Made by a program: the position numbers and the translations under genes. The notes beneath the pieces are model-generated. The model was not told the origin of the DNA. It saw nothing but the letters and a program-made list of their open reading frames with translations, and made no database searches. From NCBI GenBank assembly GCA_003134685.1, contig PLCA01000003.1:631537-695536 (forward strand): a DNA stretch of 64,000 bases, written 5' to 3'. Shown here piece after piece: positions 2,395-63,038 of the stretch; the stretch's first letter is position 1; each line of letters starts with the position of its first letter. Source of the DNA: Gemmatimonadota bacterium. GTDB lineage: Bacteria > Gemmatimonadota > Gemmatimonadetes > Gemmatimonadales > Gemmatimonadaceae.

Positions 2395-4078
2395 TGCGCA
2401 ACAAAGGGTACACGGCGGGCTCGCGTCGGAAAAAGACAAAGCCATCTCGGTCGCCGAAGACTTGAAGTCCGCGCCGGCCGCGCCAGCGATCCGCCTTATC
2501 GATCTTGGTGACGAAGTATGCTGGCCTGTCAATCGGGCCGGATAGCAGCCATTCCTCGAAATGGTCAGGTGCGACTCGAGCTGCACGTGCCGAGTGCTCG
2601 GGTGGTACCCGCGCGTAAAACAGGTGGGCGTAGCTCTTGAAGCCGAGTGGGGCGACATAACACTGGCACCCGCGGAGAGACTCGTAGAACGCGATCGGAG
2701 TCGCTTGCGTATATCGCTCGATCTTGGGCGCAATCCTCGCGAGCGCGAGCGGGACTATGATCGCCGTCGCAACGAACAAGATGCCGGCGAATCGCTTTGT
2801 ATCCTTCCGCCCACCCCAAAGTGTCGCGAGTGCAAACGCGATCGCGGCGAAATACGTTCCGCCGACGATGAGATCCACGGGAGACCACCCGACCCGAACC
2901 GCGAGTGTCGCGCGTACCAGTGGGTCGCTCACCACGCGCGACAGGTCCAGCCGATTGTGCGCGATCATGAGCCCGACGACGGGTAGCGCCAGAAACACAG
3001 CGGTCCAGGCGAGCCCGATCCCGCGGGCAGCGATACTCCAGTAGCGCGGCCACCATGTCTTTTCAACATCGGTGAGCGCCTGCGCCGCGAGAAAGGTGAT
3101 GGGAAAGTATGCAAGCGACGAGTAATGGACGATCTTCGTCTGCACGAGGGAGAACACCACCAACACCACGATCAGCAGCGAGATCATCCAGAGTCGAAAG
3201 TCACGCTGTTCCGGCGAGTCGCCTATGCGCTTGCCCAACGCCGAGACCGCAAACACGGAGGCGGGAAAGCATCCGAGCGCGAGCACCAGGAAGTGGAAAT
3301 ACCATGGGCCAGTGTGCCCGGCCACGCCCGTGCGGAGGAGCTCGAGTTGACGCGCGACGAAGGCACCAATGAAGCCGCCGGTGCTCGCGCCCGATCCCTG
3401 TTGCGAGGCGAGAATGTACCACGGTGCCGCAACGAGGCCTGCCGCAGTTACCCAGATCAACACGGGAACGATAGGCACGGCGTAGCGTCTCCGGGCCGCC
3501 CAGACCCCCAACCACGCGAGACCAGGAAGCAACAGCCCGACAGGGCCTTTAGTCAGTACTGCCAACCCAATGCTCACGCCCGCAACAACGAGCAGCACCC
3601 ATTCACCGCCGCTGTAAGACACCCGCGTGATACGAGTATTGGCGTCTGCCGCTCTCAAACCTTCGTCTGTCTGCCGACTGCTCTGAAACGCGAAGAGCGC
3701 GACAATTCCCGCAAAGATCAGGAGATTGAAGAGCGGGTCGATGATCCCGGAGCGGAAGTACAGGTTGGGCAGCATCGAGCCGCCAAACGCGAGTGCCCAC
3801 CACAAGGCGAAGCGGCGATCAAAAAGCTGCCGCCCTACTATATAGATGCCGACCAGCGTGATGATCCCCACCAAGGCATTAGGGAGCCGCGCAGCGAATT
3901 CCCCCACGCCGAACACCCGCATCGACAACGCCTGAACCCACATGAAAAGCGGCGGCTTCTCGGCGAACGGCTGGAATCCGATCTGCACCCGTCGATAGTC
4001 ACCCGTGACGAGCATCTCGCGCGCACCCTCGGCGAAATTGATTTCGTCCCAATCAAAAAGATGCAGTCGTCCCAGCAA
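2372..4078 (-). CDS. ArnT/GT39-like membrane glycosyltransferase (GT-C fold)
   Basis: A large polytopic membrane protein with the GT-C signature near its N-terminus: 'FDWDEINFAEGAREM' carries the Asp-Glu pair found in ArnT/PMT-type enzymes, followed by 'EKPPLFMWVQAL'. Such enzymes take a sugar from a polyprenyl-phosphate donor and add it to lipid A, protein or glycan on the periplasmic side. The listed start is a TTG. The frame stays open upstream to about 4171 and encodes a hydrophobic stretch (ALIAAIAAFSFIPLLG) that looks like the usual first membrane helix, but contains no ATG, GTG or TTG, so the true start is unresolved. It follows the PAP2 gene and overlaps the HAD gene by 23 bp. Confidence 0.8.
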   Translation of the reverse strand: MLGRLHLFDWDEINFAEGAREMLVTGDYRRVQIGFQPFAEKPPLFMWVQALSMRVFGVGEFAARLPNALVGIITLVGIYIVGRQLFDRRFALWWALAFGGSMLPNLYFRSGIIDPLFNLLIFAGIVALFAFQSSRQTDEGLRAADANTRITRVSYSGGEWVLLVVAGVSIGLAVLTKGPVGLLLPGLAWLGVWAARRRYAVPIVPVLIWVTAAGLVAAPWYILASQQGSGASTGGFIGAFVARQLELLRTGVAGHTGPWYFHFLVLALGCFPASVFAVSALGKRIGDSPEQRDFRLWMISLLIVVLVVFSLVQTKIVHYSSLAYFPITFLAAQALTDVEKTWWPRYWSIAARGIGLAWTAVFLALPVVGLMIAHNRLDLSRVVSDPLVRATLAVRVGWSPVDLIVGGTYFAAIAFALATLWGGRKDTKRFAGILFVATAIIVPLALARIAPKIERYTQATPIAFYESLRGCQCYVAPLGFKSYAHLFYARVPPEHSARAARVAPDHFEEWLLSGPIDRPAYFVTKIDKADRWRGRRGLQVFGDRDGFVFFRREPAVYPLLRNAVIPPR

Positions 4079-31563: not shown

Positions 31564-31592
31564 TTTACTTTTCCCGATTCGGGTTCTAGCTT
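31564..31592 (+). promoter_or_regulatory. aro (DAHP synthase) leader promoter
   Basis: TTTACT (31564-31569), 17-bp spacer, TAGCTT (31587-31592), then 7 nt (GCCCCAC) to the leader ATG. The phe leader at 61805 has the same TTTACT, spacer length and -10 to start-codon distance. It is divergent from the his promoter about 35 bp away. Confidence 0.55.
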
Positions 31593-31599
31593 GCCCCAC

Positions 31600-31683
31600 A
31601 TGTCCAGCTTCTGGTTTAGCGCGAACTATTACTACGTCTTCTTCGGTTACGACCGACGGGGGCCCGAGTCGCGCGTGCGGTAA
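31600..31683 (+). CDS. Aromatic leader peptide of the DAHP synthase gene
   Basis: A 27-codon frame (ATG to TAA). It begins MSSFWF and has YYYVFFGY at residues 10-17: nine aromatic residues in total (four Phe, four Tyr, one Trp). The following codons 20-22 (GGGGGCCC at 31658-31665) copy the terminator's 3' arm and can pair with its 5' arm. Stalling at Phe/Tyr codons upstream would expose this segment and prevent termination. It is paralogous to the leader at 61841. Confidence 0.88.
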   Translation: MSSFWFSANYYYVFFGYDRRGPESRVR

Positions 31684-31715
31684 AGTTCCAGGTTCGACAA
31701 CGCAGACAGACTACG

Positions 31716-31745
31716 GGCCTCCGCAATCGCGGGGGCCTTTTTGTT
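31716..31745 (+). terminator. aro attenuator terminator
   Basis: Stem GGCCTCCGC / GCGGGGGCC (9 bp with one U-G pair, loop AATC) followed by TTTTTGTTTC. It lies between the aromatic leader peptide and the DAHP synthase start, 55 bp before the ATG. Confidence 0.85.
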
Positions 31746-31800
31746 TCAGGGGGTCCCGAGCGGAGCAAATCCACTTCTCAATCTTCACGCAGGGGCAGTC

Positions 31801-32700
31801 ATGGCAGGATCCGAATCGACTCACGCGAAGACCACAAGACCTCATGGGCACGACAGCTTTCCCTCGAAGGATCTGTCGCGCCCGTATCGTCTCGCTGCCC
31901 ATGCCTCGGGTGCACGAGCGACTCGGCCGGTGCGCGTGAGCGACAGCGTCATGATCGGCGGCGCCGCAATAACGGTGATCGCCGGACCCTGCTCTGTCGA
32001 AAGCGCAGAGATGATCGCGAACGTGGCCACACGCGTGAAGAGCCTGGGCGCGGTGATGTTGCGAGGGGGTGCGTTCAAGCCGCGGACCTCCCCCTACTCC
32101 TTCAGCGGATTGGGGCCGGCGGCGCTCGGCTTTCTTCATGCGGCGGGCGCGGAGAGTGCTCTTCCGGTTGTGACGGAGGTCATGGACACGCGCCAGGTCG
32201 AGCTCGTCGCTCGCACCGCCGACATGCTTCAGATCGGCGCCCGCAACATGCAGAATTTCTCGCTGCTGGAGGAAGTCGGCAGGTGCGGGCGGCCCGTTCT
32301 GCTCAAGCGCGGGTTGTCGGCGACGATTACGGAGCTCCTTCTGGCGGCCGAGCACGTGATGGCCGCGGGAAACAGCGACATCGTCTTGTGCGAGCGCGGA
32401 ATTCGCACCTTCGAGACCTCGACGCGCAGCACGCTCGACGTTTCAGCGATTCCGGTGCTGAAAGAGGAGACGCACCTGCCCGTGATCGTGGATCCCAGCC
32501 ATGCGGGAGGGCTGGCGCGGCTCGTCATACCGCTCGCGCTCGCCAGCATTGCCGCCGGAGCGGACGGCATCATGGTGGAGGTCCATCCGGATCCTGAGGC
32601 CGCGCTCTCCGACGGCGCTCAATCCCTGACTCTCGAGATGTTCGGCGAATTGATGCGCGCGGCTGCACCGGTAGCGCGCGCGGTAGGACGCACGCTCTGA
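31801..32700 (+). CDS. aroF: 3-deoxy-7-phosphoheptulonate (DAHP) synthase, AroF/type I-beta
   Basis: Condenses PEP and erythrose-4-phosphate at the entry of aromatic amino-acid synthesis. The 299-residue protein has a ~45-residue N-terminal extension, then the barrel: '[18 protein letters not shown]', '[19 protein letters not shown]', '[13 protein letters not shown]', '[10 protein letters not shown]', 'CERGIRTFE' and '[11 protein letters not shown]', the set found in I-beta/KDOPS-like DAHP synthases. The ATG at 31801 follows GGGGCAGTC, the same sequence as before the prephenate dehydratase start. No separate regulatory domain is seen; control is probably by the attenuator. Confidence 0.93.
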
Positions 32701-61804: not shown

Positions 61805-61833
61805 TTTACTTTTGCGGAGCGCGAACCTATTCT
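61805..61833 (+). promoter_or_regulatory. phe leader promoter
   Basis: TTTACT (61805-61810), 17-bp spacer and TATTCT (61828-61833), then 7 nt (TGGCCCC) to the GTG of the leader peptide. Same geometry as the aro promoter at 31564-31592. Confidence 0.6.
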
Positions 61834-61840
61834 TGGCCCC

Positions 61841-61924
61841 GTGAGCACCTACTCTTTTGGCGCGCGCTATTATCTCGGCTTCTTCGGCTACAACCGATGG
61901 GGGCCCCGGTCGCGCGTGCAGTAG
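61841..61924 (+). CDS. Aromatic leader peptide of the prephenate dehydratase gene
   Basis: A 27-codon frame (GTG to TAG) with YYLGFFGY at residues 10-17; eight aromatic residues in all. Sixteen positions are identical to the aro leader peptide, including FFGY and GP-SRV. GGGGGCCCC at 61899-61907, just after the control codons, can pair with the terminator 5' arm. The start lies 7 nt after the -10, implying a leaderless mRNA. Confidence 0.87.
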   Translation: MSTYSFGARYYLGFFGYNRWGPRSRVQ

Positions 61925-61950
61925 AGTAGACGCAGCTTGCAAAGACTCCG

Positions 61951-61983
61951 GGCCTCCGCCAATCGCGGGGGCCTTCTCTTTTC
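61951..61983 (+). terminator. phe attenuator terminator
   Basis: Stem GGCCTCCGC / GCGGGGGCC (one U-G pair, 5-nt loop) followed by TTCTCTTTT, almost the same as the aro terminator. It lies 51 bp before the prephenate dehydratase ATG. Confidence 0.8.
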
Positions 61984-62033: not shown

Positions 62034-63038
62034 ATGCTGAAATCGCAGGAGTTGCACAGGAATGGTACGGAACCGCACGCGTCTGGTGAGCCTCACCCCC
62101 GGAGCCTGACGATGCGCGTCGCATTTCAGGGAGATCGGGGCGCCTACGCCGAGAACGCGATCGCGCAGATATGGCGGCACCCGGTCGAAGCGATACCGGT
62201 CCCGACATTCGCTGGCGCGGTGCGCGCGGTTCACGAAGGCAACGCCGACGCGTGCGTGATTCCGGTCGAGAACTCCTCGATTGGAAAGGTTGAGGCGGGG
62301 TGGTCTGCTCTCGCCGCGCATCCGGATCTGCGAATCGTCGGCGACACGCTCGTTGCCGTGCGTCACTGCCTGCTCGCTCCCAAAGGCGCGACGCTCGATG
62401 GATTGCGCACCGCTTCGAGTCATCCGGTTGCTCTCGTCCAGTGCAATCGCTTCTTCGAGACGCACCAGTGGATCAAGCCCGGCCAGTCGTTCGACACGGG
62501 CGGGGCCGCGCGCGAGGTCGCGGAGAGTGGAGATCTCTCGCGCGCCGCGATCGCGAGTCGCGCCGCCGCTCAGCGCTACGGGCTGTGTGTGCTGGAGGAG
62601 GGGATTCAGGATCGGCGCGACAATCACACCCGATTCGTCGCTGTCGTGTCGCAGCGCTCTCAACTTTGGCGACGCACGCACGCGATTCGCGGCGCCACTT
62701 CGGTGGACGAAGACGACCCAAAGCAAATCGCCGAGGCGACGCGCGAGCTGCTCGGACAAATCGTGGAGCGGAATTCTCTCGAGGTCGAGGAAATCGTCAG
62801 CGTGCTCTTCACGGTGACGCACGATTTGAGGTCGGCGTTCCCGGCGCTGGCTGCGCGCGAGATGGGCTGGGTAGGTGTGCCGCTCCTCTGCGCGAGTGAG
62901 ATTCCCGTCGAGGGATCGATGGAGCGATGTCTCAGGGCGCTGGTGCAGGTCGAGCCCCGCGCGCCTCGGCCACTCGACACGCACGTCTACCTGCGAAAGG
63001 CGATTGCGTTGAGGCCGGATGTGGCGGTCAGAGACTAA
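62034..63038 (+). CDS. pheA: Fused prephenate dehydratase and AroH-type chorismate mutase
   Basis: Makes phenylpyruvate from chorismate in two steps. Residues ~27-205 are the prephenate dehydratase domain: 'RVAFQGDRGAYAENAI', 'ACVIPVENSSIGKV' and the catalytic Thr in 'DNHTRFVAVV' (TRF 199-201). Instead of an ACT domain, residues ~217-334 match B. subtilis AroH: 'IRGATSV' (Arg219), 'CASE' (Cys286, Glu289), Arg301, and 'HVYLRKAIALRPD' (Tyr319, Arg327), covering the known active-site residues. ATG 62034 follows GGGGCAGTC as in aroF; ATG 62112 is an alternative. Without ACT, feedback by Phe is not expected from this protein. Confidence 0.88.
   Translation: MLKSQELHRNGTEPHASGEPHPRSLTMRVAFQGDRGAYAENAIAQIWRHPVEAIPVPTFAGAVRAVHEGNADACVIPVENSSIGKVEAGWSALAAHPDLRIVGDTLVAVRHCLLAPKGATLDGLRTASSHPVALVQCNRFFETHQWIKPGQSFDTGGAAREVAESGDLSRAAIASRAAAQRYGLCVLEEGIQDRRDNHTRFVAVVSQRSQLWRRTHAIRGATSVDEDDPKQIAEATRELLGQIVERNSLEVEEIVSVLFTVTHDLRSAFPALAAREMGWVGVPLLCASEIPVEGSMERCLRALVQVEPRAPRPLDTHVYLRKAIALRPDVAVRD

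Follow-up and report, generated by a model that had tools for sequence, protein, structure and literature searches.

A prephenate dehydratase-AroH chorismate mutase fusion gene behind a probable leader-peptide attenuator in a soil bacterium of the Gemmatimonadota

In a soil bacterium of the phylum Gemmatimonadota, a single gene encodes a prephenate dehydratase (PDT, the product of pheA) followed by an AroH-class chorismate mutase, and is preceded by the parts of a probable attenuator that has a paralog in the same window (the whole stretch of 64,000 nucleotides that we analyzed; Table 1). The fusion gene is one uninterrupted frame of 334 codons with no internal stop. It likely starts at 62034, where the sequence context GGGGCAGTCATG is identical to that at the paralogous DAHP synthase gene; position 62112 is a possible alternative start, because in G008, one of the relatives, an indel of 1 nt places the ATG equivalent to 62034 out of frame.

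Table 1. Features of the fusion locus and of the paralogous locus (positions in the window)
Feature	Position	Strand	Basis
Sigma-70-like promoter, TTTACT-N17-TATTCT	61805..61833	+	Conserved-block boundary
Leader peptide ORF, 27 codons, GTG start, MSTYSFGARYYLGFFGYNRWGPRSRVQ	61841..61924	+	Aromatic residues 8/27 (Y.F..YY..FF.Y..W)
Antiterminator strand (segment 2), end of leader ORF	61898..61909	+	Pairs with 61948-61958 in 8/8 species
Segment 3, common to antiterminator and terminator	61948..61958	+	Alternative pairings
Intrinsic terminator, 10-bp GC-rich stem, U-rich tail TCTCTTTT	61950..61982	+	3' arm competes for segment 3
pheA-aroH fusion gene, 334 aa (prephenate dehydratase + AroH chorismate mutase)	62034..63038	+	Single ORF, Pfam/NCBIfam, orthologs
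PDT domain, aa 29-206; ENS, DTGGAA, and TRF motifs	62118..62651	+	PF00800; solved relatives 2qmx, 6vh5
Inter-domain linker, ~9 aa, aa 207-215 (QRSQLWRRT region)	62652..62678	+	Conserved in genus
AroH-class chorismate mutase domain, aa 216-330	62679..63023	+	PF07736, TIGR01796, alignment to 1com/1ode/1xho
Promoter-like element of paralogous attenuator	31564..31592	+	Same promoter start as fusion attenuator
Paralogous leader ORF, MSSFWFSANYYYVFFGYDRRGPESRVR	31600..31683	+	Most aromatic-rich short ORF of window
Paralogous terminator, with antiterminator CGGGGGCCCG x CGGGCCTCCG upstream	31715..31748	+	Nearly identical terminator
DAHP synthase, 299 aa, without ferredoxin-like regulatory domain	31801..32700	+	PF00793, 272 bits; no PF18152

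Two domain collections and a set of solved structures divide the protein in the same way. The Pfam scan matched PF00800 with 161 bits against a cut-off of 25.2 (E = 3e-47; profile positions 1-178 of 181) and, at near full length, PF07736 (CM_1) with 139 bits against a cut-off of 27 (E = 1e-40); the NCBIfam model TIGR01796 (CM_mono_aroH) scored 128 bits, where the cut-off is 82, and the PDT models of that collection matched residues 26-216 only. The N-terminal part aligns with the prephenate dehydratase structures 2qmx and 6vh5, and the C-terminal part with the AroH structures 1xho, 1ode, and 1com. The TRF motif of PDT is present as NHTRF at residues 197-201. In the mutase domain, Arg219, Arg275, Cys286, Glu289, Arg301, Tyr319, and Arg327 are identical to the aligned residues of 1com, at positions known to form the active site of Bacillus subtilis AroH; the active-site cysteine (Cys286) is a serine in Thermus thermophilus, and the catalytic residues checked are invariant across seven species of the genus. 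No ACT domain was detected in the fusion at E values up to 1 by the Pfam scan, which does detect the ACT domain in the PDT of another Gemmatimonadota genome (G047), and PF01817, the signature of an N-terminal AroQ domain, was absent from the same scan, the mutase being the C-terminal PF07736 domain. The original prediction of a PDT joined to AroH without ACT was thus borne out by Pfam, NCBIfam, and the structure alignments, as was its claim of a retained AroH active site, with all seven aligned positions identical to 1com. A single-chain AlphaFold model, made from a shallow alignment, reached a pLDDT of 39 and is unusable for the arrangement of the domains or the oligomer.

The unit ahead of the fusion gene, from promoter to terminator (61805-61982), is conserved in eight species. 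When their upstream DNA is aligned, the boundary is sharp: the gene upstream varies, and conservation starts at the promoter and reaches the start codon. In the counterpart leaders, a stretch of Tyr/Phe codons with Phe-Phe after it is preserved in every species except G008, and both the antiterminator and the terminator pairing can form in all eight. One antiterminator pair is A-U in place of G-U in two of the eight species, and support from covariation is thin because most helix positions are invariant. The leader RNA is predicted to fold more stably than its shuffles (z = -4.7), and no T-box or other family reached threshold in an Rfam scan upstream of the fusion. By its anatomy, this element is probably a classical leader-peptide attenuator that reads Phe and Tyr codons. 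The GTG of the leader stands seven bases after the promoter element, close to the predicted transcription start. Both leader ORFs of the window (61841 and 31600) begin about 7 bases past the predicted -10 element, a position that suggests leaderless or nearly leaderless mRNAs. In G008, a MAG that is 54% complete, small deletions in the leader (L033, about 3775-3860) have removed the Phe-Phe codons, and the stop codon and terminator are kept; it may be that this leader is in decay or that it responds to a different amino acid.

A homologous attenuator (31564-31748), with a GC-rich antiterminator, lies 30 kb from the fusion and is followed by the same GGGGCAGTCATG context and a gene for DAHP synthase, the first enzyme of the pathway. 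This attenuated copy is without the regulatory domain PF18152, which the other DAHP synthase of the host genome has. Of the window's 230 short ORFs of comparable length, the leader of DAHP synthase has the highest aromatic fraction (0.33) and that of the fusion the second highest (0.30), followed by 0.16 for the next ORF. The terminator pattern matches at two sites in the host genome, both of them in these attenuators, and at two in G014, and the leader type of the window's DAHP synthase precedes the same gene in G014 and G017. In G364, a genome of another family, a single Phe-rich leader with a terminator is followed by DAHP synthase and then by PDT-AroH. The overall pattern suggests an ancestral attenuated operon that was split, with each part retaining one copy of the switch.

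Full-length fusions occur in six more MAGs of the same genus (G014, G016, G002, G008, G010, and G017) at 72-95% identity, and the linker between the domains is conserved. The named records with an orthologous fusion, located with scan patterns specific to the genus, are Gemmatimonadaceae or Gemmatimonadales MAGs from separate projects. Elsewhere in the genus, Ns span the fusion junction in G005, and G011 has no more than a fragment of AroH, which lies at the edge of a contig. The raw ratio of nonsynonymous to synonymous single changes is 0.31 for PDT and 0.28 for linker plus AroH, indicating that purifying selection acts on both domains. Profile searches over about 410 distinct genomes (295 from the class set, 395 from the phylum set) returned full-length fusions outside the genus only in G378 and G364, from two genera of another family. 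In both, the linker has some 25-30 residues, longer than the window's ~9, and a DAHP synthase gene ends in the DNA immediately upstream. A match was seen in 75 plasmid records, none of which covered 80% of the fusion, and we found no report of the combination of PF00800 with PF07736 in the open-access literature. Within Gemmatimonadota the architecture is rare, and in that scope the claim that it is unusual holds.

In the genome to which the window belongs, which is 98% complete, the fusion protein is the one PDT, and the one AroQ-class mutase forms part of a fusion with prephenate dehydrogenase (TyrA). A search of this genome for a stand-alone AroQ found none. With AroQ-TyrA as the sole further chorismate mutase detected, the Phe and Tyr branches each have a mutase of their own, and the two differ in fold. 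Four genomes of the same genus that are 94-98% complete (G001, G012, G013, and G015) yielded no PF00800 protein. The PDT step is therefore patchy in the genus, and these organisms may be Phe auxotrophs or may rely on a different dehydratase.

Leaders of this kind are not confined to the fusion. Phe-rich leaders with terminators stand ahead of PDT genes in G047, G258, G057, and G033, and a control on random stretches gave leader-terminator combinations in 1.2%, an overestimate because the pool itself contained attenuators. Tyr-rich leaders with terminators stand ahead of DAHP synthase in G003, G007, and G013, all of the fusion's own genus, where the enzyme keeps its regulatory domain and an aroQ gene lies nearby; these are probably Tyr attenuators. 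Many Gemmatimonadota may control Phe synthesis by attenuation, and we found no paper in the open-access literature that combines this phylum with leader peptides and attenuation. The PDT behind the Phe-rich leader of G047 has an ACT domain, so loss of ACT is no precondition for attenuation. Control by attenuation, which the original prediction had tied to lost Phe feedback, is thus supported as such by a complete attenuator in eight species and by its DAHP synthase paralog, but not as a consequence of the missing ACT domain.

The arrangement of the unfused genes bears on how the fusion arose. Several genera have aroH directly downstream of an ACT-less PDT gene but in a different frame, and in several such pairs the frames overlap or nearly do so; in G003, which belongs to the fusion's own genus, the two genes share a frame, with a stop between them. 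ACT-less PDTs with no adjoining aroH also occur in the phylum. The unfused pair of ACT-less PDT and adjoining aroH is likely the precursor state, and the fusion most likely arose when the stop codon separating an ACT-less pheA from the aroH downstream was lost. Because ACT-less PDTs occur alone or beside a separate aroH, loss of ACT and fusion are separable steps. Thus, AroH does take the place of ACT in C-terminal order, as had been proposed, but a simple replacement does not fit the recurrence of ACT-less PDTs without fusion. The trees do not resolve the backbone or the deep relationships and so single out no direct precursor; G003, considered for that role, is not supported in it, since the trees do not group it with the fused clade. 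The best tree requires two fusion events, a constraint holding the fusions together gives p = 0.086, and linker length and gene context also point to two origins, which are favored over one, although a single origin is not rejected.

We consider it very probable that the gene encodes a bifunctional chorismate mutase-PDT of the Phe branch, without ACT, that belongs to a small Phe/Tyr attenuation regulon shared with DAHP synthase. From the domains, residues, conservation, leader, alternative RNA pairings, and paralog read in the DNA, we infer catalysis, RNA switching, and loss of feedback as follows. The AroH domain would convert chorismate to prephenate and the PDT domain prephenate to phenylpyruvate, both dedicated to the Phe branch, and the tyrosine branch would be served by the separate AroQ-TyrA fusion. 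With charged Phe tRNA (and probably also Tyr tRNA) plentiful, the leader would be completed, the ribosome would cover segment 2, and the terminator would form; with charged tRNA scarce, the ribosome would stall at the TAT TAT ... TTC TTC codons, segments 2 and 3 would pair, and transcription would read through into the fusion. The duplicated switch on a DAHP synthase without its regulatory domain would let pathway entry and the Phe branch be adjusted together. The usual allosteric inhibition of PDT by Phe should be absent because the fusion has no ACT domain. The AroH of T. thermophilus is reportedly inhibited by tyrosine (Helmstaedt et al. 2004), and some feedback may remain in the fusion because AroH enzymes can be inhibited in this way. 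AroH-class mutases are trimers with active sites at the subunit interfaces, and PDT dimerizes. Joined by ~9 residues, the two might build a defined higher-order assembly, a hexamer or a cage, in which prephenate is handed from one site to the other, and one duplicated attenuator might have replaced allosteric control at both entry and branch, an extension of the model that we regard as rather doubtful.

Other explanations can be given for the gene and for the hairpin ahead of it. Adjoining unfused pheA and aroH genes exist in relatives, same-genus G003 included, and a frameshift or misassembly could in principle have fused such a pair here, a doubt already raised with the original prediction. 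However, six MAGs from separate projects share the same full-length frame and conserved linker, both halves are under purifying selection, and PDT-AroH appears again in G364 and G378. Because of the six full-length MAGs and the selection on both domains, we conclude that the fusion is not an assembly error, an explanation to which we give almost no credence. It is also improbable, if less extremely so, that the AroH domain has lost catalysis and stands in for ACT in regulation or as a scaffold, binding, for example, Tyr or Phe at its old active site. ACT domains help PDTs to oligomerize, and AroH, which holds their C-terminal position, could do the same; the reported Tyr inhibition in T. thermophilus would fit a regulatory role as well. 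Against this, every catalytic residue examined is still in place and does not vary among seven species, and the only other mutase found belongs to the tyrosine branch.

The RNA element invites a similar question, because a terminator-like stem between two genes might merely terminate the upstream gene, with the aromatic ORF a remnant or a product of chance and the fusion otherwise controlled or constitutive. Simple scans found terminator-like sites about as often as in shuffles, which lends this reading some plausibility. Yet the gene upstream varies among species, whereas conservation extends from the promoter as far as the start codon; the leader is among the two most aromatic-rich short ORFs of the window, the other being its DAHP synthase paralog; all eight species can still form the alternative antiterminator; and PDT genes of other genera are also preceded by Phe-rich leaders. 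We hold a mere terminator to be unlikely, and prefer an attenuated, bifunctional enzyme of the Phe branch.

Such an enzyme has close functional parallels. The Escherichia coli P-protein PheA (AroQ-PDT-ACT) likewise carries mutase and PDT in one polypeptide for the Phe branch, stands behind a Phe leader-peptide attenuator, and shares its cell with a chorismate mutase-TyrA fusion for the Tyr branch; its mutase, however, is an N-terminal AroQ and it has ACT, whereas here an unrelated AroH fold is C-terminal and ACT is missing. The AroH proteins of B. subtilis and T. thermophilus share the family (PF07736, TIGR01796) and active-site residues of the fusion domain but are monofunctional trimers, whereas here AroH is the C-terminal domain of a predicted bifunctional enzyme. 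Stand-alone PDT-ACT proteins (2qmx, 7alz) have the same catalytic domain; the fusion has a mutase and no ACT. Compared with the enterobacterial pheL and tyr attenuators, the element is alike in its product-rich leader, 2:3 and 3:4 helices, and U-tract terminator, and differs in the lack of an Rfam match, in a start codon near the predicted transcription start, and in duplicated copies that serve DAHP synthase and the PDT-AroH gene. Exported CM-CDT and CDT-CM proteins, in which AroQ-gamma is fused to cyclohexadienyl dehydratase, are likewise rare fusions of these same two consecutive activities, one topology having a C-terminal mutase, but are not thought to be biosynthetic (PMC10520331); the present protein differs from them in combining AroH with PDT, in having no evident signal peptide, and in its biosynthetic context.

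The protein would thus be a known kind of enzyme, a bifunctional chorismate mutase-PDT, with another mutase fold and with control at the RNA level rather than through ACT. The layout of the E. coli P- and T-proteins, one mutase per branch, is reproduced here with an unrelated mutase fold, so that this looks like a convergent enzyme fusion, and the fusion step is open to study because unfused neighbor genes exist in relatives. Copies of one attenuator on DAHP synthase and PDT, both without their allosteric domains, suggest that, within one lineage, control of the Phe pathway can pass from protein allostery to attenuation at the RNA level.
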